Source: Siphonodentalium dalli (taxonomy: Eukaryota; Mollusca; Scaphopoda; Gadilida; Siphonodentaliidae). Taken from it: 64,000 nt of DNA. The notes under the pieces are model-generated. The model was not told the origin of the DNA. It ran no database searches and saw only the letters and a list, made by a program, of their open reading frames with translations. This document shows, in pieces, positions 8,956-57,068 of the stretch. The stretch's first letter is position 1. Each line of letters begins with the position of its first letter. The position numbers and the translations under genes are program-made. The stretch lies in contig CP136067.1 of assembly GCA_032622095.1 (NCBI GenBank), positions 61,700,893 to 61,764,892 of the forward strand, written 5' to 3'.

Positions 8956-9327
8956 GGTGACTAATTTTGTCTCAGTTTGTCTTGTCCACATGCATTCATT
9001 CTATATATTTTGAACAGGTTCCTGGTGACTTTCAACTATTTATATTGGTGTCATAGTAGTGTTCCTAGTGTTATTGGAAGATTAAGGTATATGTGTTCCC
9101 ATGAGTAGCTTCCGATCACTATTATAAGTGACTATAGTCTTGTTCAATAATTAGTACCGTATGAATTTGCTATATATATACATGTACATTTGTATAATAT
9201 TGAGATATAGCATACCATGCATGCAATTAACTGCAGCCCAAGTCATGTAGGGGCTTGGGTTGGGGCAAGAATTCAACAAAGCAAAGCTTATAATAAATTA
9301 GTTTTATATTAGCCTGACACGTGTACG
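8956..9327. other. Unassigned sequence upstream of LINE
   Basis: AT-rich sequence without recognisable genes. It may include the 5' untranslated part of the LINE, whose exact 5' end I cannot place. Confidence 0.5.
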
Positions 9328-12300
9328 TTGTACTCTGATACATGTATATGTAATGTTTATGACTGCAACACTGCCCATCAAAATCGGTCGATTTCCAGCA
9401 CGCCACTCCTCGCGGACCCGGGAAGTACTTCAGACAATGAAATAAATGAATACAATTCTACCCATTATATGATACTGAACTATGGCAAATCTAACCTTCC
9501 CCAATGGAATTATCCTGTTATAAATTCCAATGAGGCGGTTTCGACATTTGAACCCGAACTTCCCAATCAAAGTTTGACCCACGACATCGCTAATCTCAAC
9601 GAGGGCGTGTCTACGCGTCACGAGGTAACTCACACTAACAAATATCCTTTGGATTATGGTTTCCGCTTGGCAGATTTTAACAGCTATTCACTTGAGCCTC
9701 AATTGGAGTCCTTTATAAGCGCGAATAGTGTCGATCAACCCTCTATTGTTGATTCGTCGCATACTCTTAGCTGCATGATTGAGCATAATGCTAGTCTGTA
9801 TGATTTTAATAATGATAAACCTCGAGATTTTAATGATGTTTCCGACGTCCTTAGGAATGCACGCGAAACCATCTTCGATATCAGTGACATGCCTTCTGGC
9901 ACATGTGCATGTACTTCTACACTGACTGATGTTGACATTGATACCAGTGAAGATATTTCTTCGCATAAACTGAAAATACTTACACTGAACATGTGTGGTC
10001 TCCAAAAAAGACTTAACTATCCAGAGTTCCAAGACTTGTGCAATTCACATGACTTATTATGTCTCTGAGATGACTGCGATAAGCTGGAACTCCCTGGTTA
10101 CACCTTTTTCATGAAAAATAGAACGAATCTTAGCAAAATCAGATCCGGTGGAATTGTAATAGGAATAAGAAATGAATTGGTGCGCTTTTCCAAAAGCGTA
10201 AATACAAAATCGAAATTTGTTAATTGGATAGAGATTATAAAACAGAATCACTCATATAATCTACATGTTATTATAGGAGCAACATATGTACCACCGGCCG
10301 GAAGTAAATACACTTCCAAAGATGCATTCACCGAAATAGAGAGCGAATATATATCCCTCTCAAACCGAACATACTGATAACAGGTGATTTCAATGCACGA
10401 ACGTCGAACGGCATCCGAATTGGATGTTAGCATCGAGGATGCAGATGATGAATTATTCACTATTGATCAAGACATTTGTTTTAATTTGAATACAGAACAA
10501 TTATTCTTCCTTCAGCTTACAGGTACCCCCTTGCTTAGAAATAGCCAAGACCAGTCGCATAATAGCTACGGTAGTATGATGTTGAACTTCTGTAAGCTGA
10601 ATGGCTTTCTCATTCTTAATGGTCGAGTAGGTAGCGATAGAGGGGTTGGGGCACTAACATGCCGCGACTCCTCTGTGGTTGACTATACTGTTTGCTCGGC
10701 AGAAGCACTTCCTTTAGTCAGTCAATTCGAAGTACTCCAATTCAGCTATCTATTTTCAGATATCCACTCCCCAATCGTCACTGAGCTCAATTACCAGCGA
10801 CCTACATGAGCACACCATGATGATGCTATGCCCGTAAATAATAGTTACATAAGAAAATGGGACCAAAAGAAATGTTCGGATTTCTTAGCAAACATTGATT
10901 ATGATAACCTGTGTAAAATTAGTAATACTCTAGACTCATATAGTTCACCCACATGTACGACAGCGAGTCCTGATCAGATTAACTCAATAGTTCGTGCTAT
11001 AACTGACATATTAGTTACTGCAGCCAAAGTGGCTCTCGGAACACGTTCTCGCAAAGTTAAGACTGAACGAACTTCGACAAACAAGCCATGGTTCAATGAA
11101 ACATGTCGGACGGCGCGAAAAGCACACCGGAAAGCATCTCGTTTTTATAAATCGTGCCTAGATTATTACTCAAAAACTGAAATGAGACGCACATCGCGCG
11201 CATACAAACTAGAGATGGACAAAGCTATTACAATACACCGAGAGTTAATATCACGCGAAATGTCCCAAATGAAACATCGTAATCCCAGAGAATTTTGGAG
11301 AAAGCTTAGAGACCCCACCCATAGACCCAAACGAAGCGTTGACATAGATGCTCTCGCTGACCATTTCCGAATGATTAACTCCACCTCACACGAAGACGAC
11401 CCCTCCATAAGTATATTTATTTCTAACAATTTCGACGAAAACGAGAATACGGAAATTAATATGCCCATCACATGCGAAGAGATCACCCAAGCCATAAACA
11501 GTTTAAAAAATAATAAATCATCTGGCCATGACTTAATATTGAACTAATATATACCAAATTCAGCGTATACCACAAACTCTTTAATGTTATTTTAGATACT
11601 GGATTTATTCCTGAAGAATGGGTACTGGGAACGATTATTCCTATATTCAAAAATAAGGGAGACCCAAGTGACCCGAATAATTACAGACCGATTACAATAC
11701 TTAGCTGCTTGGGCAAATTATTCACGAAGATCCTTTCAAACCGACTGAATGTATTCGTAGAAAGTCACAGTATAATTTCTGAAAACCAAGCTGAATTTAG
11801 AAAGAACTATTCAACTGCTGATAACATGTTGATACTGACATTATTGTCAGAAATAAGCAGACATTTGAATAAGAAATTACTCTGTGCCTTCATTGACTTT
11901 AAAAAAGCGTTTGATACTGTGTGGAGACAGGGTTTATGGTACAGATTGTTACAATGTGGGATTAACAGCAAGATACTCAGAGTAATTGTTAATATGTACC
12001 AACACGTCAAATATTGTGTTCAATTTAACACCGCCACTACATCTTACTTCCCTTGTTTTGAGGGAGTTAGACAAGGTGAGAACTTATCTCCCTTCTGTTT
12101 TCATTATATGTTAATGACCTGCAACAATTCCTTGAAAAAGATAACTTGATCGGATTACGAAAATTGAAAGTAGACTGGATTGCTACTTGAAAATCTTTTT
12201 GATTCTTTATGCCGATGATACAATTATCATGACAGATACCCCCAAATCACTACAATCACAATTAGATCAATTTGAAAAATATTGCGACAAATGGAAATTA

Positions 12301-13405
12301 ACAATCAATGTGGAAAAAACTAAAATTCTTAACATATCAAAAAGCAGTCTCTCGAAGAAAACGAAATTTATATTCAAAGGACAAAAACTAGATGTGGTAA
12401 CCAACTTTAGCTACCTGAGCATACCATTTACTAAATCTGGCTCTTTCATGCCCGAGAAAAGAATGTTGGTTGACAAAGCCACAAGGGCCATGTATTCCAT
12501 CATTGGAAAATCCCGCAAACATTGCCTTTCAATACGAAATCAACTTGACTTATTTGATGCTCACGTTGTACCAATACTTCTATATGGCTGCGAAGTATGG
12601 GGATACGGTGATAACGATTTATTAGAAAGCGTTCAACGAAAATTCTTAAAGCACATACTTCGTCTTCGACCATCAACCCCAAATTGTATGATATATGGCG
12701 AAAGTGGGAAAGTGCCGTTAAGTATACTGATTAAAACCCGAATGTTCAAATACTGGTGCAAAGTCACAAATAGCGAACCTGAAAGATTCCCAAAAATTCT
12801 ACTGAATTTAATGCAGTCAATGATATGCGATACCGAAAAAGGTGAAAATATTTCCCCCTGGTTGAGTTGTATTCACGAGTTAATAACCAAATGTAATCAA
12901 CCGCATATATGGTGCGCAGGTCACGTTACCAACGTAGATCAGCTAGTATCATATCTAAAATGTTGCCTTATTTCCAAACAAAGAGATTCTTGGGAATATG
13001 ATATGAACAACACAAGTCGTGGTAATATATACCGGATTTTCAAACACGACTTTGATTTTGAAACTTATCTTGATGTACTTAGCGACCAAAACCGAACACT
13101 GTTATGCAAATTCCGAACCAGTAACCACAAGTTACCAATAGAAACGGGACGGTGGATCAATACCGACCGGGATGATCGCACTTGCGTCTTGCGTGTTATG
13201 TGATACAGGGTTAATTGGTGACGAATTTCACTACCTTCTCGTATGTAAAAAAATGACCAACGTCCGGCGCAGATTGTTACCAATATTAACTGGCCGACGC
13301 CCTAATACAATATTGATGAGTGATTTACTCAACGACGACAATGTAACACATCTCCGCAAGTTGTGCGAATTTATTAAGATTGTAAATCGAGAAATGACCG
13401 AATAA
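9328..13405 (+). pseudogene. Endonuclease/reverse transcriptase polyprotein of LINE, broken
   Basis: This is the remnant of the retrotransposon's replication protein, which nicks target DNA and copies element RNA at the nick. The first 210 or so residues from 9328 are acidic and low in recognisable motifs. The endonuclease starts near 9970 (KILTLNMCGL), with ITGDFNART near 10377-10403 in a different frame and SDIHSPI near 10759-10779. The RT follows: LKNNKSSGHD near 11500, NNYRPITIL near 11680, FIDFKKAFDTV at 11889-11921 (motif A), GVRQGENLSP near 12063-12092 (motif B) and YADD at 12208-12219 (motif C). A CxxC...H...C knuckle lies at 13190-13246. In-frame stops occur near 10066, 10375 and 10807. 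The reading frame changes around the GDFN motif, again between 11545 and 11580, between motifs B and C, and near 13190. Catalytic motifs are recognisable but scattered over three frames. Confidence 0.9.
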
Positions 13406-17905: not shown

Positions 17906-17929
17906 AAAAGGGACACTTATTTTGAGAAG

Positions 17930-18910
17930 GTCTGTATGTGTACCGGTACATATAATGATTGTATGGTCATTGTTCAAGTATACATGCATACCTGGAGTAG
18001 CTGGATGGTAATTGGCGGGGCGTATGGGTATATGGGGAGTGCTGTTTTGGTCATGAGTTGAGTGTATGTGTATATCTGACGTGGCTGTATGTGCACAGAG
18101 GGAGTGGATGTATGGCCATGAATGGGGTGTTTAGGAATTCATCAAGTGGCTGAATGGACATGGGTGATATATATGCAAGCCTGGAGTGGACGACTGGTTG
18201 TGGGTGTAGTGTATTGGTATATCTAGAAGGGCTGTATGGCCATTGGTGAGGTGTATATAAATGTATATACCGGTACCTGGATTGACTGAATGGTCATGGT
18301 GGGGTGTATATGTATATCTTGAGTGGCCATATGGTGTCGGTGAGGTGAATAGGTATACAGGGAATATTGCATGATGATAAATTATGAGAATAGGTATACA
18401 AGGAGTGACTATATGGTCATGTGTGGGGTGTATGTTCCTGGTGTGACATGCATGGCCGTGGTGAGGTGTATGGGCATACAAGGAGTGGCTGTGTGGTCAT
18501 GGCATGGGTGAGGTGAAGAGGATATATGAAATTACTTTATAGGCATGTGTCGGTTGTACATGTGGACCTTGGGTGGCTGTGTTGTCACCGGTGGGTGTAT
18601 ATATATACATGTGTTGGCTGTATGATCGTGGGTGGGTGTAAGGAAAAATATGGAATGGTTGTATAGTAATATGTTATGGGTAATGTGTATAGGTGTACAT
18701 GGCATGGCTGTATGGTCATGCATATGCAAACCTGGAGCATATGGGTGGTTATTGGTGAGGAGAATGGGTATATAGGTAGTGCCCTTGTGGTCATGGGTGG
18801 GATGTATTTGTATGTCTTTCGTGGCTGTTTCGCCATTGGTGTGTGTATAGGTATACAGGGAATGGCTGTGTGATCATGGATGGGGTGTATCAGTATACAA
18901 TGAGTGGCCT
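17930..18910 (+). repeat. Degenerate minisatellite, about 50-bp unit
   Basis: Units resemble AGTGGCTGTATGGTCATGG followed by TGGGGTGTATGGGTATACA and repeat about 18-20 times with heavy divergence. The minus-strand ORFs rich in H, T and P (18131-18836) are translations of this repeat. Confidence 0.8.
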
Positions 18911-20145
18911 CTTTGTTTTGTCAAATTAAAGAGCCACTGAAATAATTGGTGATTTTAGTAGGATTTAATGACGATCCAATGACCAGTGATCCAAAATTGC
19001 CTGCCAACACAACAATAATATGAGTATATTGCTTCAGTTTGACTACTGGTTTAACCATTTAACTATGTTTGATTCCTGGGGTTGGCGATATTTAAATTCT
19101 GCAAGATTATATTTGCTGTTGCTTGGACCACAACAATGTTCAACTTTCTGTATGTACCACCTTGGTAAAATGTGTGTCATCACTAAATGATTGTTTACTA
19201 TGTTTGGAGTTGTTCATAAACAGATTTGTTGGTTGTTAAGGTTCACATGTGATATGTACATACATGTTTGCATCATAGCAATTATGTGTCAATCGGAATG
19301 TTTTATAAGAGCGAAGTGTAATAATTGGGTTGGTTGAAAATCACTTCCTGATTGTTGGCCATTTTGGATGCCATCTTGATTCTGGAGGAAGACGGTTTCC
19401 TCGATTTTGATACTAGTGACAAGAGTTATAATTTGTGGCCGTTGTGAGATAACATGTGGCAATTTTATTCTTAAAATACTTAACCCTACTCCTACCATCA
19501 TTTGCGAATATTTGCCAATTTTGGGTCCCCACAATAAATATGCAATTGCGGAAAGTTGCACAAATATCTCATAGCGAACCTTTTATGTGTTCATTGCAAT
19601 TGTACACTACATTGAAAAAAGTTGAAACTATTTCTGTACAAATTTTGTCTAGGTCAAACCTTAGCATAACCCAGCATCATATTTCACAAAAAATGATTAA
19701 AGAATAGTGTCATACCGGTATATACTAAATCCGTAACATGTTTGTTTTAAGTTTGAATGATTAATCATATGTTGGCACATGATAAGAAAGTCAACTAACC
19801 TTCAAATAAAGGAGCAATTCAGCGATCATATTAATGTCATTTAGAAATTAAGACATCCTTGTATCATTATTAACTAAAACAAGCTGGCACAAAAGGTTGC
19901 AAAACAAATTCTATAAGGAGGCTGTTCATTTACTATACCGGTAATGTTGCTATGAGTGCAAATTAGCTTTGCACTGGGATGTTTGATGCAGGGAAATTGT
20001 GGATTTACTGACCACCCCAAGTGATCCTAGAAAAGCAGAAAAAAAGCATCGCTCTTGCCAAGTGTACGTGGCAGCAGCAGCAGGAGGGGACCATTTGCGT
20101 TTTCTTGTTTGTGCTAGCCTAGTAAGGCCGATTGCGACCAAATAA
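18911..20145. other. Unassigned sequence
   Basis: No gene or clear repeat family recognised. The ORFs at 19289-19561 and 19456-19707 overlap on opposite strands and show no recognisable protein features. Confidence 0.4.
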
Positions 20146-20490: not shown

Positions 20491-20719
20491 ATCTGTAATG
20501 TCAGTTACATGACGTCATGAGTAAATTTAACGTCAATGTCATAGCAATAATTACTAACAAGTTTGGGTCAAAAGGGTCCAATAATTCGTTTTAATTGATG
20601 TACATTTTTTGTTAACGTGTGTTATCATAATCAATTGCACTTATACATTTGGGACTATTATATTAATCAAAATAACTCTTATACAAAACATTTATAAATC
20701 AGATGATTTATTGAAGTTA

Positions 20720-21277
20720 TCTCATATATATTTTGAAGACCTCTGTTTGTCTGTCTGTCTGTCTGTATGTCTGTCATTTATACAAATCTACGATTCTCGA
20801 CCGATCGGGACGAAACTAGGTACGTGTGTGTAGTTTGACCAGGCGGTGGACGTTGTCGTATTGGCGAGCCCGTGCGGTATGTGAATGTATCTTGCCCCGG
20901 ATACAAATTTTATCGGGTCGCTTAACCCGTGCGACCCCAGCTTCGCGCATGCGCAGACGAGATCTCCGAAACGGGTGGAGCTATTGACTTGAAATTTGCT
21001 ATGTGAATGTATCTTGTCCCGGATACGAATTTTATCGGGTCGCCGAGCCCATGCGACGCCAACTTCGCGCATGCGCAGACCAGATCTGGGAAACGGGTGG
21101 AGCTATCGACTTGAAATTTGCTATGTGAATGTATCTTGCCCCGGATACGAATTTTATCGGGTCGCCGAGCCCGTGCGACGCCAGCTTTGCGCATGCGCAG
21201 ACCAGATCTCGGAAACGGGTGGAGCTATCGACTTGAAATTTGGTTTTTGAATAGCCCGGACAATGTCGGGCTCATCG
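20720..21277 (+). mobile_element. Helitron-like element, family X, copy X1
   Basis: It starts TCTCATATATATTTTGAAGA directly after an A, carries a TGTC microsatellite near 20744-20770, then three tandem 122-bp units (GCGCATGCGC at 20945, 21067 and 21189). Near the 3' end is a hairpin AGCCCGGACAATGTCGGGCT (21253-21272). The layout of a 5' TC, a 3' hairpin and no TIRs is that of non-autonomous Helitrons. The 3' terminus directly abuts copy Y1, so the last bases are uncertain. ORFs on either strand here come from the repeat. Confidence 0.7.
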
Positions 21278-22161
21278 TCTCCTATATATTTTGAGAACTA
21301 CGTATATATATATGTGTGTGTGTGTATATTTGTCCTCTATAGGATCAAAAAACGGCTGGCTCAATTGAGCTCAAACTTCCCATCTAAGGGTAAAAACCCA
21401 CGGGAATCGTCGTCGCGGCGTTTTGGAGAAGCTCTGAGCACTCATTATCCACTCCTAATCACAAAAAATGGCACTGCGGGGTTAATCACGTGATAATTTA
21501 ATGAGCGTTTGTATATGACGCGTCGCTATAAAAGAGCGTTTGTTTACAATTCAACGCAACGTTATCGCTCGAAATTTAGCATCGAAAAAATTTAATTTCT
21601 TTCATCAAAAACATAATTACGTGTTGGACTGTGTCGTTTTAAGAACATATAAGTATTACACGCAGACACACGAAGTCTCAGCTTTAAATTTTGAAAAATA
21701 ACAGTTTTATCGACATAAATCGATTTGAATGCGAAATCCTATGTTAAAATTTAAATATACGCCACTGGCGGCATTCGTCCCATGAAAATTCTCTGGAAGC
21801 AAAATGGTCAACTCGGGACGGGTCAACCGATTGAGCCCAAACTTGCTACCTATGGGTACTTTTGTCCCGAAAGTGTCACGGACGGGTCAAATCGTGACCC
21901 CGACGTGACATTGACCTTCAAACTGGTCAATTCAAGGTCAAATGGGGTAAAACTGGCGGATTTCTGTACCTTTGTCCGGGGAGTGTTTTGGACAGGTTAA
22001 ATCATGACCACGACCTGACCTTGACCTACAAAATTGTCAATTCAAGGTCAATTCGGGTAAAATTTGTTGCAGATCAGCACAAGTGTCTCGGAACCTGTTG
22101 CAATTGCTTTTTCGAACAAAGTCATGGGACGAATGCCGTCAGTGGCGGGCTAACCTGCTAG
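21278..22161 (+). mobile_element. Helitron-like element, family Y, copy Y1
   Basis: Starts TCTCCTATATATTTTGAGA. A hairpin (around 22135-22149, a variant of CCCGCCAGTGGCGGG) lies about nine bases before the terminal CTAG (22158-22161), which is followed by T. This matches the Helitron pattern of TC start, 3' hairpin and CTRR|T end. No Rep/helicase ORF, so non-autonomous. Confidence 0.75.
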
Positions 22162-23617
22162 TCAACTATATATTTTGAGACATACGTATATATGTATACT
22201 AGAAGGTGACCCGACTTCGTCCGGGCTTTGACCTTGAATTGACCATTTTGAAGGTCAGGTGGGGTCAAACACCAACACCCCAAAAATGGTGGAAATCGGC
22301 CCAGCGGATACCGGGAAATCGGCCCAGCGGATACCGAGATACCCTATGCATCAAATTTCGTTCGTAAAAATCCGCCAGTTTAACCCGATTTTATTTCCAC
22401 TCAAGTATATAAACGCGCCTCATATACACACGCTCATTAATTATCAAGTTTCAACGTAAAGATAAATTACCATCGGTGCCCGAGATATCGCCAAGACGTC
22501 TGAAACAGTCAAATGCATCGGCCGGTTAAGCGTTAACGTGATCTAACGTTATGACCTCTAACGACGTCATAGAAGTTACGCATTGTTTTTATCCTGATGG
22601 AAGATAGTACCACTTCTTCTTGATAATTGAGGCAGATAACTAAAACGGATACATACGCATTATATATCGTTGGAAAGAGGAAACACGAAAGATTCTCACA
22701 GTGTCATTATTATGACTATTCGCGCTGTTTCGAATCGATTTGTAAGCACCGAACTCAAATGAAAGTTCCGTAACACAGCGTAAAAACAGATTTGACCGCG
22801 GCACGTGAAAAGTTGACCTCGGATCTGAAAATTGATAGGCCCATGCCACCCCTGGCCGAAAATACCCCCACATACCAAGTTTCATCGGCTCGGTCGTTTT
22901 CGAGTCCATCGCGATCACACAGACACACACACACACACACACACAAACAGATCTTCCAAAATATATAATAGATATGTGTGTGTATATCCTTTATAGACTC
23001 GAAAACAGCTCGACCGATTGAGCCCAAACTTGCTATCTAAGGGTAAAAAGCCACGGGAAGTGTCATCGCACCGCTTCTGAGAACGTCCGAGCACTCCTTC
23101 ACCCTTCAACTGCCACCGTAATGGGGATTAAGGGGTTAATCTCGTGATAATTAATGAGCGTTTGTATATGAGGCGTCGCTATTAAAGAGCGTTTATCTAC
23201 TTTAATGAAAATACGGCATTTGACCGTCTCACTCGGAAACTGGGGATATCGAGACGAAATTTCCTACTTAGTGGTTCCAAGGGACGGGGGAGATTTTCGT
23301 CAGGTCAGTTTGTCCGCCCGAGGTGACCTTGACCTTGAAACAGGGTACCCACAAATGACCTTGGGTGATATCTCGGTAGTCAGCGGTGACATCGATGTGA
23401 AATTTGTTATGTATGGTCAACACGGGATGGGAAATATTTTTGTCGGGTTATTTTGTCCACCCAACATGACCTTGACACGGGTACCCGCAAATGACCTTGG
23501 GCGATATTTCGGGCATCAGCGGTGGCAGCGACGTACAGGGTTACCTTGAAAAACAAAAATTAATGGATCGACCAAAGCCATGGGACCAATCCCGCCAGTG
23601 GCGGGCTAATATGCTAG
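22162..23617 (+). mobile_element. Helitron-like element, family Y, copy Y2 (split by X2)
   Basis: It begins TCAACTATATATTTTGAGAC immediately after Y1 and ends with CCCGCCAGTGGCGGG (23591-23605), then CTAG at 23614-23617. Copy X2 (22199-22972) lies inside. Without it the element is 682 bp. The 114-codon ORF at 23205-23549 is inside Y2 and shows no known domain. Confidence 0.75.
22199..22972 (-). mobile_element. Helitron-like element, family X, copy X2, inserted in Y2
   Basis: On the minus strand it begins TCTATTATATATTTTGGAAG and ends with a GCCCGGACGAAGTCGGGT hairpin, then CACCTTCTAG. Removing it joins 'tatgtata' to 'tatgtgtg', restoring sequence like that of Y1, with insertion exactly between A and T and no target duplication. 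It contains an AC microsatellite (about 22919-22945). ORFs on the minus strand lack recognisable features. Confidence 0.8.
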
Positions 23618-24437
23618 TCTCCTATATATTTTGAGACTTCCTTATATATCCATATATCCTTTATAGACTCGAAAACGGATCGACCGATTGAGCCCAAACT
23701 TTCTATCTAAGGGTAAAAAGCCACGGGAAGTGTCATCGCACCGCTTCTGAGAACGTCCGAGCACTCCTTCACCCTTCGCCCTGCCACCGTCGTTGGAATT
23801 GATGGGTTAAATGGTCTCTTTGATGTGTGTGACCCGATGCAGGAAGGACAACTCTAAATTCACACAACGTATTGAACGTTAGGATATACGTATCACTTAC
23901 GAACATTTTGTCGTATCTGCTGAAAAAGTTACCAAGTTTTCTCCACTCGATTCTCTTAAAATGCACCCTAATCAGTCAAATTCTTTCGATATTTCTATCT
24001 AAATACATCTTAGCTATTTTTTTATTTGGATCAGCTCTCCCCGTCGAAAAAGTGATAGTTGGACCAAAACGACACATGAGAAAAGTTTGTTTACAATATC
24101 AACTCACAGTCCATGCTGGAAATTTAGCATCGAAAAAAATTATTTTCTTCCATCTAAAACATAATTACGTGTTAAGAATATATAAGTATTACACGTAGAC
24201 ACACAAAGTCGCAGCTTAAAATTTTGAAAAATAACAGTTTTATCGACATAAATCGATTTGAATGGGAAATCCTATGTTAATAAATTTTAGGGCTCTGCGA
24301 GTGTTTTCTGAGCTGCTACATATTGGGCACATAGCATGCTGTCGGCGTGCCTGTACGGGGTTACCTTGGAAAAAAAAAATTAATGGATCGACCAAAGCCA
24401 TGAGACCAATCCCGCCAGTGGTGGGCTAATCTGCTAG
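23618..24437 (+). mobile_element. Helitron-like element, family Y, copy Y3
   Basis: Starts TCTCCTATATATTTTGAGA directly after Y2 and ends with CCCGCCAGTGGTGGG, then CTAG at 24434-24437, followed by T. Interior sequence, for example 'gaccgattgagcccaaactt', is shared with Y1 and Y2. Confidence 0.75.
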
Positions 24438-24775
24438 TGTCTACATAAAATAACACTTCCTGAAATGACATATATGTCGTTCTACAACTTCTACTCCTCA
24501 ACCGATAGACGACATATATATCATTCTACTCGCCAAAGGGTTAATGAGACCGGACCTTAACTGTGACCCTGACGGAGGAGGAGTCGGGTCAGGACCGTAA
24601 TTCTAACTCTAATATATATACCCTGACTAAGACTTAAAATAGTTATTATTTGACTGTCTGACATATTGTCAGGCACTAAACAGACATGGTCTGACATTTC
24701 AAAATGAGGCCTGACATATCTTTTTATGTTTACCCATACCATAGTATGGTAAACATAGTGTCGTTGCCCGGATTG
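24438..24775. other. Spacer with short inverted motifs
   Basis: Contains repeated TGACATATATGTCG-like and TCTGACATATTGTCAGGC palindromic motifs. No gene seen. Confidence 0.45.
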
Positions 24776-24790
24776 ACCACTCGTCGTTGG

Positions 24791-24848
24791 TCCGTCTGTC
24801 TGTCTGTCCGTCTGTCTGTCCGTCTGTCTGTCCGTCTGTCTGTCCGTA
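24791..24848 (+). repeat. CCGTCTGTCTGT microsatellite
   Basis: Tandem CCGTCTGTCTGT units. It opens a repeat block with units such as 'ataactcaaacattttttat' and 'gagttatggccctttttc' that continues to about 25120. Confidence 0.9.
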
Positions 24849-39230: not shown

Positions 39231-41935
39231 GCTTGTAACTTAAAGGCAAGGATTTTCTTATTCAGTTGTGCTTTGGTTTGTTGATAGCACAGCAGCCATC
39301 TTGGATTTTACTCTTTGCATGACTAAATCCTTTGGCACTGGCTACAGGTCGTAGCTGTCGTCGGATCATCATGAAATGTGTCACGTATGTTAACAATGAC
39401 ATGTAGATGAGAACGAGGCATTTTGGGGTTATTCGGCAAAAAAACATGGCCACCAGTGGCCATCTTGGATTTCAAAATTCAATCCATTAGCACGTGCTAC
39501 AGGTCATACTGTTCGTCTGATCATCATGAAATCTGTCATGGATGTTAATATTGACATGTAGATGGGAACAATGTCATTTTAGGGTCATTTGGATAAGGCA
39601 GCAGCCATCTTGGAATTTACTCTTTGCATGACTAAATCCTTTGGCATGGGCTACAGGTCATACCTTTAATCAGATCATTATGAAATTTGTTATGGATGTT
39701 GACATTGACATATAGATGGGAACGAGTCATTTTGGGGTCATTCGACAAAAAAACATGGCCACCAGCAGCCATCTTGGATTTCAAAATTCAATCCATTAGC
39801 ACAGACAAACAGGCTGGAGTGTTCGTCTGATCATCATGAAATTTGTCGTGGAAGTTAATATTGACATGTATATGGGAACGAATCATTTTGGGGTCATTCG
39901 GCCATAAAACATGGCGCCAGTAACCATCTTGGATTTTACTCTTTGACACAGGCCACAGGTCGTATCTTTGGTTGGATCATCATGAAATTCGTCATGGATG
40001 TTAACATTGACATGTAAATGGGAAGGAGTCAGTTTGGGGTAACTCGGCAAATAAACATGGCTGCCAGCAGCCATCTTGGATTTCAAAACTCAATCCATTA
40101 GCATGGGCTACAGGCCGTACTGTTTGTCTGATCGTCATGAAATTTGCCAATTATGTTAATATTTACTCTTTCCATGACTAAATCCTTTGGTACGGGCTAC
40201 AGGTCGTACCTTTGGTCGGATCATCATGAAATTTGTCATGGTTGTTAACATTGAAATGTAGATGGGAATGAGTTATTTTCGGGGTCATTCTGCCATAAAA
40301 CATGTCCGCTGGCAGCCATCTTGGATTTTACTCTTTGCATGACTAAATCCTTTTCCCTTATCCGATCATCACCAAACTTCATATTAATCTTGATATTGAT
40401 CTACTAGATGGAAGCTATCAAATGATTTTAAATTTCATTGGAAAACATACTTAGACCTTTCAACTTTCCGCATTCCTAATTGCTCCATTGACTATAACAC
40501 ATGAAATTATTCCCTTTCAATGTTGAGCTACAGTGTCATTGACACTTTCATTATGAAATTTGTCGTGGCTGTTGATATTGACATGAATATGGGAGCAAGT
40601 CATTTTGGTGTCATTAGGCTCTAAAACATGGCCACCAGCAGCCATCTTGGATTCTACTCTTTGCATGACTAAATCCTTTGGCACGGGCTAAAAGTCATAC
40701 CTTAGGCGATCGCTCGTACCTTTGGTAAGATCATCCTGAAATTTGTCCTGGATGTTAATAATGACATGTAGATGGGAACGAATCATTTTGGGGTCATTCG
40801 GCTGTAAAACATGGCCGCCAGCAGCCATCTTGGATTCTACTCTTTGCATAACTAAATCCTTTGGCACCGGCTACAAGTCGTACCTTTGGGCGGTCGCTCA
40901 TACCTTTGGTAAGATCATCCTGAAATTTGTCATGGATGTTAACATTGACATGTAGATGGGAATGGGTCATTTTGGGGTCATTCGGGCTATAAGTCATACC
41001 TTTGGGCAGATCATTATGAAATTTGTCATGGCTGTTGATATTGACATGCAGATGAGAACTAGTCATTTTGCAGTCGTGAGGCAAAAAACATGGCTGCCAG
41101 TGGCTGTCTTGGATTTCAAATTCAATTCATTAGCATGGGATACAGGCTGGAGTGTTCATCAGATCATGCCATTTGTTGTGGATGTTAATATTGACATGTA
41201 GATGGGAACAAGTCATTTTGGGGTCATTCGGCCATAAAACCTCTAGATGGGAGATATCAAAGTTTGAACAATTTTCAATTAAAAACATGGCCACCAGCAG
41301 CCTTCTTGGAATTTACTCTTTGCATGACTAAATCCTTTGGCACAGTTCATACCTTTGGTCGGATCATCATGAAATTTGTCATGGATGTTAACATTTACAT
41401 GACTAAATCCTTGGGCACAACCTACAGCCCACATCTCTCATCTGATCATCACCAACCTTCATATGGATCATCGGGGTGACCTCTAGATGGGAGCCTTAAA
41501 AGTTTTCAGAATTTTGTTGAAACACATAGCCACCAGTGGTCATCTTGGATTTTACACTTTGTATGACTTAATCCTTTGGTACACCCTACAGACGACACCC
41601 TTCTTGTCAAATCTTCACTAAACTTCACATGGATCTTCTGGATGACCACAAGATGGGAGTAATTTAATTGTTTCTGAATTTCATTAAAAAACATGCTACT
41701 GGCAGCCATTTTGGATTTTACTATTTGCATGACTTAATCCTTTAGCACACCCTACAGTCCACTTCCCTCATCCGATCATCACCAAACTTCGTATTGATCT
41801 TTTTATTGATCTACTAGATGGGAGTTATCAAATGATTTTGAATTTCCTTGGAAAACGTGGCGTCCAGCACCCATCTTGGATTTTACTTTATATCTAGTAT
41901 TACTTAGAACATTTCCATGACATCATTCATTGTTT
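39231..41935 (+). repeat. Tandem array of TAGCTCAAC-family internal units
   Basis: About sixteen diverged units of 150-170 bp include 'ccagcagccatcttggattt', 'actaaatcctttggca', 'gatcatcatgaaatttgtc' and 'agatgggaacgagtcatttt'. A family 3' end (GAGCTACAGTGTCATTGACA) occurs near 40525. Many minus-strand ORFs here translate the repeat (for example NDPKMTHSHLHVNVNIHDK). Confidence 0.85.
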
Positions 41936-50768: not shown

Positions 50769-52370
50769 ATTCATCAACAATACAGGCTACAGGTCGTACC
50801 TTTGGTCGGATCATTATGAAATTTGTCATAGCTGTTGACTTCAACATTTAGACCGGAACAATTCATTTTGGGGTCCTTCGGAAAAAAAACATGGCTGCCA
50901 TCTTGGATTTCAAAATTTAATCCATTAGCACAGGCTACAGGTCGTACTGTTCGTCTGATCATCATGAAATTTGTCATGGATGTTAATATTGACATGTAGA
51001 TGGGAACGAGTCATTTTGGGGTCATTCGGACAAAAAACATGGCTGCCAGCAGCCATCTTTGATTTCAAAATTCAATCCATTAGCACGGGCTACAGGTGGT
51101 ACTGTTAGTCTGATCATCATGAAATTTGTCATGGATGTTAATATTGACATGTAGATGGGAACGAGTAATTTTGGGGTCATTCGGCCAAAAAACATGGCCG
51201 CCGGCAACCATCTTGGATTTTACTCTTTGCATGACTAAATCCTTTGGCACGGGCTCATCATGAAATTTGTCATGGATGTTAACAATGGCATGTAGATGGG
51301 AACGAGCCATTTTTAGGTCATTCGGCCAAAAATCCTGGCAGCTAGCAGCTATCTTCGATTTTACTCTTTGTATGACTAAATCCTTTGGCACAGGATCATA
51401 ATGAAATTCGTCATGGCTGTTGACATTGGGACGTAGATAGGAAACGAGTCATTTTAGGGTCATTTGGCCTTAAAACGTATCCACTGTCAGCCATCTTGGA
51501 TTTTACTCATTGCATGACTAAATCCTTTGGCACACCCTACAGTCCACTTCCCTCATCCGATCATCTCCAGACTTCATATTAATCTTTATATTGATCTTAC
51601 TAGATGGAAGCTGTCAAATGTTTTTGAATTTTATTGGAAAACATAGCCGCCAGCAACCATCTTGGATTTTACTGTTATATATATATATAGCCGATGAGCC
51701 CGACGTTGTCCGGGCTATTCGACCCGATAAAATTCGTATCCGGGGCAAGATACATTCACATACCAAATTTCAAGTCGATAGCTCCACCAGTTTCCGAGAT
51801 CTCGTCTGCGCATGCGCGAAGCTGGCGTCGCACGGGCTCGGCGACCCGATAAAATTCGTATCCGGGGCAAGATACATTCACACCCCAAATTTCAAGTCGA
51901 TAGCTCCACCCGTTTCCGAGATCTGGTCTGCGCATGCGCGAAGCTGGCGTCGCACGGGCTCGGCGACCCGATACAATTTGTACCCGGCGCAAGATACATT
52001 CACATAGCATATTTCAAGTCGATAGCTCCACCCGTTCCCGAGATCTCGTCTGCGCATGCGCGAAGCGGGCGCCGCACGGGCTCGCCGATACGACAACGTC
52101 CACCGCCTGGTCAAACTACACACACGTACCAAGTTTCGTCCCGATCGGTCGAGAATCGTAGATTTGTATTAATGACAGACAAACAAACAAACAAACAAAC
52201 ATACATACATACAGACAGAGGTCTTCAAAATATATATGAGATATCTCTTCATGTTAATCTAGTATTAATTAGAAATTTCAACTTTCTGTATTCCTAATCG
52301 CTCCATTGAGTGTAATACATTAAATTATTCCCTTTCCAAGTTGAGCTACAGTGTCATTGACACTTTCATT
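50667..52370 (+). mobile_element. TAGCTCAAC-family element, copy with Helitron inside
   Basis: The 5' end is TTTTTAGCTCAACTTTACTT, a hairpin with 'gtaaagttttagct'. A GT microsatellite follows (50733-50764), then internal units from 50889. The 3' end is GAGCTACAGTGTCATTGACA followed by ctttcatt. Helitron X3 (51687-52241) interrupts it. ORFs on the minus strand are translations of the units. Confidence 0.75.
51687..52241 (-). mobile_element. Helitron-like element, family X, copy X3
   Basis: Inverted relative to X1 and of the same structure: three 122-bp units (GCGCATGCGC at 51808, 51930 and 52052), a terminal hairpin AGCCCGACGTTGTCCGGGCT (51697-51716) and a tetranucleotide microsatellite near the other end. 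Removing it joins 'ttttactgttatatatat' to 'tatctcttcatgtt', as in the uninterrupted sequence at 55155. ORFs over it are repeat-derived. Confidence 0.8.
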
Positions 52371-55434: not shown

Positions 55435-57068
55435 TCAACTTTACTTTGTAAAGTTTGAGCTATTGTCGTCTGTGTGTGTGCGCATGTGTGATGCGTTAAC
55501 AATTTCCTTTAGCACGGGCTACAGGTCGTACCTTTGGTCGGATCATTATAAAATTTGTCATAGCTGTTGACATTGACATGTAGATGGGAACGAGTCATTT
55601 TGGGGTTATTCGGGAAAAAAACATGGCCTCCAGTGGCCATCTTGGATTTCAAAATTCAATCCATTAGCACGGGCTACAGGTCGTATCATTCGTCTGATCA
55701 TCATGAAATTTGTCATGGATGTTAACAATGACATGTAGATGGGAACGAGTCATTTTTGGGTCATTCGGGCAAAAAACATGGCCGCCAGCAGCCATCTTGG
55801 ATTCTACTCTTTGTATGACTAAATCCTTTAGCACGGGCTACAGGTCGTACCTTTAGTCTGATCAGCATGAAATTTGTCATGGATGTTGAAATTGGAATGT
55901 AGATGGGAACGAGTCATTTTGGGGTCATTCGGACAAAAAATATGGCTGCCAGCGGCCATCTTTGATTTCATAATTCAATCCATTAGCACGGGCCACAGGT
56001 CGTACTGTTCGTCTGATCATCATGAAATTTGTCATGGATGTTAATATTGACATGTAGATGGGAACGATTAATTTTGGGGTCATTCCGCCAAAAAACATTG
56101 CCACCAGCAGCCATCTTGGATTTTACTCTTTGTATGACTAGATCCTTTAGCACGGGCTACAGGTCGTACCTTTAGTCTGATCAGCATGAAATTTGTCATG
56201 GATATTAATATTGACATGTAGATGGGAACGAGTCATTTTGGGATCATTCAGACAAAAAACATGGCTGCCAGTGGCCATCTTTGATTTCAAAATTCAATCC
56301 ATTAGCACCGGCTACAGGTCGTACTGTTCGTCTGATCATCATGAAATTTATCATGGATGTTAATATTGACAAGTAGATGGGAACGAGTATTTTGGGGTCA
56401 TTCGGCCCAAAAACATGGCCACCAGCAGCCATCTTGGATTTTACTCTTTGTATGACTAAATCCTTTAGCACGGGCTACAGGTCGTACTTTTAGTCTGATC
56501 ATCATAAAATTTGTCATGGATGTTAATATTGACATGTAGATGGGAACGAGTCATTTTGGGGTCATTCGGTTAAAAAAACATGGCCACCAGCAGCCATCTT
56601 GGATTTTACTCTTTGTATGACTAACTCCTTTAGCACGGGCTACAGGCCGTACCTTTAGTCTGATCATCATGAAATGTTTCATGGCTGTTGAAATTGGAAC
56701 GTAGATGGGAAAGAGTCATTTTGGGGTCATTGCGATAAAAAACATGGCTGCCAGCGGCCATCGTTGATTTCAAAATTCAATGCATTAGCACGGGCTACAG
56801 GTCGTACCTTTAGTTTGATCATCATAAAATTTGTATTGGATGTTAATAATGACATATAGATGGGAAGTTCCCATTGGGAATGAGTCATTTTGGGGTCATT
56901 CGGCCAAAAAACATGGCCGCCAGCAGCCATCTTGGATTTTGCTCTGTGTATGACTAAATCCTTTACTGCTCGTTTTGTACACTCCTTTTTAATCTCTCTA
57001 TTCATTGCTCATAAAAAAAAAATTACCTTCTTTACAAAGTTGAGCTACAGTGTCATTGACACTTTCAT
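55435..57068 (+). mobile_element. TAGCTCAAC-family element, most complete copy
   Basis: The 5' end TTTTTAGCTCAACTTTACTT forms a hairpin with 'gtaaagtttgagcta'. The 3' end is GAGCTACAGTGTCATTGACA followed by ctttcatt, where AGTGTCATTGACACT is a hairpin. Between them lie nine units whose 'acatgg' marks fall at 55621, 55776, 55940, 56095, 56259, 56413, 56578, 56742 and 56911. Spacing alternates 155, 164, 155, 164, 154, 165, giving a dimeric period of about 319 bp. No transposase or RT is seen. Confidence 0.8.

Follow-up and report, generated by a model that had tools for sequence, protein, structure and literature searches.

Canonical Helitrons start with TC, end with CTRR, carry a palindrome about 11 bp from their 3' end and insert between A and T (PMC4067079), and elements of the Helentron/HINE type are described as having subterminal inverted repeats and inserting between two T residues (PMC4067079, PMC7492417). 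Tandem Helitrons of bats, plants and fungi are already in print, as is a maize pair of unlike elements in the same arrangement as the one described below, and the formation of such arrays has been explained variously by rolling-circle copying, by circles or by serial insertion. In the r1 region of maize B73, two unlike Helitrons are adjacent, the CTAG of one being directly followed by the TC of the other, and consecutive insertion was inferred (PMC2267711). Insertion at A^T at the 5' end and at G^T at the 3' end (carets mark the joint between neighbouring bases) are both discussed there as models, and the presence/absence data of maize lines fit the G^T order without an excision. According to an argument of Pritham and Feschotte that the same paper reports, elements inserted independently ought to be separated by an A. 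In Metarhizium acridum, three Helitrons lie in tandem, and two insertions into the 5' end are one of the two options offered (PMC5148889). For an Arabidopsis tRNA-Cys cluster, presented as a possible array of short Helitrons, three Helitron finders are reported to have given no reliable prediction over the tRNA genes (PMC10701932).

The window analysed here, the whole stretch of 64 kb of DNA, contains an array of four unlike, non-coding Helitron-like members on the same strand, in the order Y0^Y1^Y2^Y3, with a further element, Yi, nested in Y2 (Table 1). Y1 and Y2 meet without any spacer at 22161/22162 (...GGGCTAACCTGCTAG^TCAACTATATATTTTGAGAC...), as do Y2 and Y3 at 23617/23618 (...GGGCTAATATGCTAG^TCTCCTATATATTTTGAGAC...). 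The first-pass annotation had placed CTAG^TC joints at exactly these two points, and family ends do lie on both sides of each. It had described the locus as three Helitron-like elements joined head-to-tail from position 21278 onwards. The Helitron-like identity and the head-to-tail order are borne out by the TC starts, the CTAG ends, the hairpins near the ends, the A^T target of Yi and the lack of Helentron-type subterminal inverted repeats in all six elements, that is, the five of the array and a free-standing second copy of the Y0 type, C2. Y1 and Y3 and the abutment from Y1 to Y3 also stand; Y2, however, is not a single element of 1456 bp but one of 682 bp with a 774-bp insert, and a fourth member, Y0, had been missed, with which the array begins at 20720.

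Table 1. Positions of the elements, their flanking bases, hairpins and internal repeats in the window.
Feature	Positions	Strand	Remarks
A	20719..20719	+	directly left of the array; left half of the presumed A^T target
Y0	20720..21277	+	non-autonomous, Helitron-like, 558 bp; 5' end A^TCTCATATATATTTTGAAG; adjoins Y1; without final CTAG
122-bp tandem repeats in Y0	20878..21242	+	
Y0 3' hairpin	21253..21272	+	6-bp stem, 8-nt loop
Y1	21278..22161	+	non-autonomous Helitron, 884 bp; TC...CTAG
Inverted copy of Y1's own 3' hairpin region	21760..21785	-	25/26 identical
Y1 3' hairpin	22136..22148	+	5 pairs, one G-T; absent from the minimum-energy fold of the 50-nt end
Y2	22162..23617	+	Helitron, 682 bp without Yi (22162-22198 plus 22973-23617), split by Yi
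Yi	22199..22972	-	complete 774-bp Helitron nested in Y2; A^TC...CTAG^T
Yi 3' hairpin	22209..22226	-	5 pairs, one G-T, 8-nt loop; within a longer stem in the best fold
Y2 3' hairpin	23591..23605	+	6 pairs, loop AGT
Y3	23618..24437	+	non-autonomous Helitron, 820 bp; TC...CTAG
Y3 3' hairpin	24411..24425	+	6 pairs, one G-T; absent from the minimum-energy fold of the 50-nt end
T	24438..24438	+	directly right of the array; right half of the presumed A^T target
C2	51688..52241	-	free-standing second copy of the Y0 type; 5' end A^TC

Four of the six elements (Y1, Y2, Y3 and Yi) have both the TC start and the CTAG end. All three free 5' ends (Y0, Yi and C2) are preceded by A, and all six 3' ends are followed by T, which for Y0, Y1 and Y2 is the first base of the next element; among these six, Y0 and C2 are without CTAG and the end of C2 is uncertain. 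Because the array has A and T as its outer flanks, A before the free 5' ends and T after the 3' ends, the whole stack resembles what a single ordinary A^T site would contain. The nested element gives a direct view of such a target. Yi lies 37 bp inside Y2 and in its own direction reads ACACATA^TCTATTATATATTTTGG ... CCCGGACGAAGTCGGGTCACCTTCTAG^TATACAT. When it is removed, Y2 reads GTATATATGTATA^TATGTGTGTGTATA and aligns ungapped with Y1 across the joint, whereas Y3 has a gap there. The joint is in a TA/TG-rich stretch, so that its exact base could not be placed from the alignment by itself, but all four of TC, CTAG, A and T are positioned as in a canonical insertion. Since Y2 without Yi aligns with Y1 and these four motifs are in their canonical places, the sequence supports Yi being a relative that entered at A^T, its outermost bases being TC and CTAG, without target duplication. 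Y1, Y2, Y3 and Yi thus have the ends and hairpins of canonical Helitrons, the A^T insertion being taken from the single case of Yi in Y2, judged against Y1, with which the outer A and T of the array agree. Insertion between two T residues was not found: the target was A^T for Yi, and both Y0 and C2 have an A in front of their free 5' ends. No subterminal inverted repeats were detected in any of the six elements, the best inverted match between the first 60 and the last 150 nt being 5-6 bp, which was equalled by 38 to 60 of 60 shuffles.

The array shares with the maize r1 pair the CTAG^TC joint between unlike sequences, but there two elements carrying gene sequence are involved and their presence or absence in different lines is known (PMC2267711), whereas the present locus has four members and a nested one, with no coding sequence found and nothing comparable to the line data. 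Precise head-to-tail joints are also a feature of the tandem Helitrons of bats and plants, which PMC5876387, PMC2267711 and PMC5148889 cite as tandem copies or as truncated Helitrons inserted in tandem; here the members are unlike. The row of three, the proposed insertion into the 5' end of a resident and the nested or composite copies recall the elements of Metarhizium acridum and the self-inserted FoHelis of Fusarium, which are non-canonical fungal Helitrons, some of them coding (PMC5148889). In the Arabidopsis cluster, repeating units, CTAG followed by T or C and a proposed origin as tandem Helitron copies are similar, but the units are near-identical and contain tRNA genes (PMC10701932). 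A search of open-licence papers found no report of a stack of four unlike Helitrons with a nested one. With four unlike members, of which three are intact at both ends, and a nested insertion showing ends and target, the array separates serial insertion or joining from the copying of a single unit. Its value is that of a clean test case which shows what to count genome-wide.

The letters CTAGTC are in themselves no evidence for the joints, with eight matches on both strands of the 64-kb window versus 13.15 expected in shuffles; the evidence is that family ends flank each joint. The 3'-end profile made from Y1-Y3 recovered these three with E below 1e-16, together with a partial inverted copy inside Y1 (E 6e-6) and a weak match (E 2.1). 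A 5'-end profile built from the six ends recovered all six at E 6e-6 or better. Input sequences match by construction, and the information in these searches lies in the absence of further clear copies of the family ends from the 64 kb with either profile. The next 5' matches, at 17918 (E 0.025) and 9001 (E 0.23), were inspected and look unrelated; five more had E above 4. Exact matches to the core TATATATTTTGAGA number three, one close to the start of each of Y1, Y2 and Y3; with up to two mismatches allowed there are 10, versus 1.90 expected. When CTAG sites on both strands were screened for a G+C-rich hairpin 5-10 nt upstream, by criteria set after the family ends had been seen, only 7 of 222 had one and all four family CTAG ends were among the seven (Fisher's test, 3.6e-7); such a hairpin was found at 225 of 20000 random positions. 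The window holds 6823 A-T sites. If the six elements were placed at random among them, about 0.002 same-strand abutments would be expected versus the three seen (with the decayed Y0^Y1 joint included), and the probability of two exact abutments would be about 2e-6, according to a rough model of uniform site choice that was built after the array had been seen.

Short 3' palindromes, as in canonical Helitrons, are present in Y1, Y2, Y3 and Yi as stems of 5-6 pairs with G-T pairs allowed. In the best fold, the hairpin is plain in Y2, Y0 and C2, part of a longer stem in Yi and not found in Y1 or Y3, and the four fold z-scores for the ends of Y1, Y2, Y3 and Yi (-0.76, -0.89, 0.02 and -1.27) are weak. 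Within Y1, positions 21760-21785 and 22122-22147 form a 26-bp inverted repeat around the last 400 bp of the element; this inverted hairpin copy may be a fold-back copying error.

The 5' end of Y0, A^TCTCATATATATTTTGAAGACC, is of the same kind as in the rest of the family, and its interior consists of a TCTG microsatellite and three copies of a 122-bp repeat. C2 shares with Y0 the 5' end, the kind of repeat and the hairpin, and the similarity of the two extends to within a few bases of both ends. The 3' end of C2, CATCGGCTA followed by a TA run, contains no CTAG and its exact position is uncertain. Y0 ends in CATCG directly before the TC of Y1, the final CTAG being missing. A deletion may have removed it: if the original end is modelled on that of Yi (CACCTTCTAG), removal of TCTAG between two TCT triplets would turn the expected CATCGTCTAG^TCTCC into the CATCGTCTCC observed at Y0^Y1. 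Since they have a TC start but no CTAG, Y0 and C2 are Helitron-like only. Their layout is that of the non-autonomous Cg_HINE of the Pacific oyster, with flanks, a microsatellite and short satellite-like repeats, although Cg_HINE is of the Helentron type, with subterminal inverted repeats and a T-T preference (PMC7492417), and the present elements have TC, CTAG (in four), A^T and no such repeats. Another GTCT/GTCC microsatellite, at 24790-24847, lies about 350 bp to the right of the stack; it resembles that of Y0 and has no recognised element ends.

Identities between the members were counted module by module, with gap columns set aside. Y2 and Y3 agree at 175 of 194 positions in the 5' module and at 79 of 85 in the 3' module, and have no common middle. 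Y1 and Y3 share a middle module that is absent from Y2, in which they agree at 181 of 200 positions versus 137 of 186 in the 5' module (Fisher's test, 1.5e-5); the corresponding BLAST identities, with gaps counted, are 83.5% and 71.6%. The 3' ends of the same two elements (42/50) are not significantly different from their middle (p 0.20). A short module is common to Y1, Y2 and Yi and has no match in Y3. Homology over the whole length, as in satellite DNA, was not found, Y1-Y3 sharing their ends without a middle common to all three. Because they are mosaics with unlike middles, the members are not repeats of one rolling-circle unit.

We consider it somewhat probable (roughly 0.55) that the locus holds at least four different non-autonomous Helitrons of canonical type, stacked leftward by serial insertion at A^T, and that a fifth one, Yi, inserted in the opposite orientation in the second (Y2). 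Once a resident lies between A and T of the host, its first T and the A before it would make up a new A^T site. A newcomer placed there would create ...CTAG^TC... without a spacer and leave the A outermost on the left; repeated rounds would give Y0^Y1^Y2^Y3, with Y3 as the oldest. Left A^T insertion leaves no A between the elements, unlike the expectation of Pritham and Feschotte. Since three such events would be hard to get from a random choice of A-T sites, the resident's 5' end may have been favoured as target, perhaps because a Rep protein, which would have to be supplied from elsewhere, cuts there to start transposition. For Helraiser, both ends are reported to be cleaved on plus-strand oligonucleotides in vitro, and a left-end nick starts the proposed pathway (PMC5876387). 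We infer that left-end cleavage could play a role in targeting. CpG decay does not settle the order of insertion: for Y1 versus Y2 and Y3, the count was 10 against 4 for a younger Y1, as left growth predicts (p 0.18, not significant, with overlapping comparisons), and for Y2 versus Y3, over the 5' module and the 85-bp 3' module, it was 1 against 3 for a younger Y2, an opposite lean with too few differences to count. It also counts against left growth that the Y0^Y1 joint without CTAG requires a deletion that we infer, and that the Yi joint is TA/TG-rich, with Y3 gapped there.

The first-pass annotation had noted that the copies differ in sequence and length, which holds, part of the length difference being due to the insertion of Yi in Y2. 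Its conclusion that the array is not a recent duplication of a single unit agrees with middles that are unrelated or shared criss-cross. Two mechanisms had been offered, of which insertion next to an existing end is favoured. The other, rolling-circle read-through or multi-round copying of one element into identical tandem units that later diverged, is very improbable here: tandem arrays of plants and bats and their head-to-tail joints have been taken as support for rolling-circle transposition (PMC5876387), but the criss-cross or unrelated middles, the lengths of 558, 884, 682 and 820 bp and the different type of Y0 speak against such copying. The strongest rival, in itself rather unlikely, is one in which the ends of different elements were joined before or during insertion, Rep linking one element's 3' end to another's 5' start, or in which a circle recombined with a resident through shared modules, the array then arising in a single step or a few and its members turning into mosaics. 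Precise end-to-start joints are described as normal in circles (PMC5876387, PMC13286980), the outer A and T are compatible with a single insertion event, and Y3 is itself a mosaic of Y2-like ends (175/194 and 79/85) and a Y1-like middle (181/200). However, such mosaics could predate the stack and stem from other places in the genome, the 3' ends of Y1 and Y3 do not differ significantly from their middle, and no pattern peculiar to circle recombination was seen.

The same final joints would also result if each newcomer had inserted to the right of its predecessor, at the G^T where CTAG meets the following T, with Y0 as the oldest member. Insertion at a noncanonical G^T is one of the two readings of the maize pair (PMC2267711), and the CpG decay of Y2 and Y3 leans this way (3 against 1, too few to count); but G^T is unlike the A^T target of Yi and three noncanonical insertions would be required, which makes growth on the right doubtful. 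An assembly artefact or a chance placement of CTAG and TC motifs, to which the missing enrichment of CTAGTC could be thought to point, is scarcely credible with family ends flanking each joint, consistent A and T flanks and joint sequences that are all different. Serial insertion at the left edge might even reflect a general habit: it is possible, at odds well below even, that Helitrons in this genome prefer the 5' ends of resident relatives, cut or cuttable, as insertion sites and that unlike elements are thereby stacked leftwards one at a time, a preference drawn here from a single array at one locus. If true, the 5' end of a resident would be a self-targeting landing site instead of a random A-T.

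A Pfam scan of the 20 stop-to-stop ORFs of at least 120 aa in the window (the longest of 352 aa) revealed no Rep or helicase domain. Matches were obtained for two of the 20, both to RVT_1, in a LINE at 9.3-13.2 kb; at 9313-13203 this non-LTR retrotransposon-like sequence has its reverse transcriptase domain split over two reading frames. Together with the repeat content, this LINE points to a eukaryotic source of the DNA. Exact-pattern searches of viral and prokaryote collections (four patterns in viral_contigs, two in genome_contigs) gave zero matches, which is unsurprising for a eukaryotic element, and zero matches were likewise returned by Rfam at the gathering threshold and by a text search of the literature for the 5'-end letters. 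A fifth element to the right of Y3 was considered: the 40 nt after Y3 lack the TATATATTTTGAGA core and match the ends of Y1 and Y2 only as well as 287 and 297 of 4000 random 40-mers. The weak alignment of the same stretch (24438-24477) with the 5' end of Y3 itself was equalled by 13 of 4000 random 40-mers, and it is perhaps a decayed stub of another element, or chance. Tandem arrays at 39289-40146, 40554-40985, 50782-51534 and 55505-56965 have units (basic periods of about 141 to 183 bp) that look similar in consensus, and the one at 50782, preceded by a GT microsatellite, is arranged like the core of rolling-circle elements. The local GC skew of 18001-20000 is 0.332, the next highest value for a 2-kb segment of the window being 0.109.
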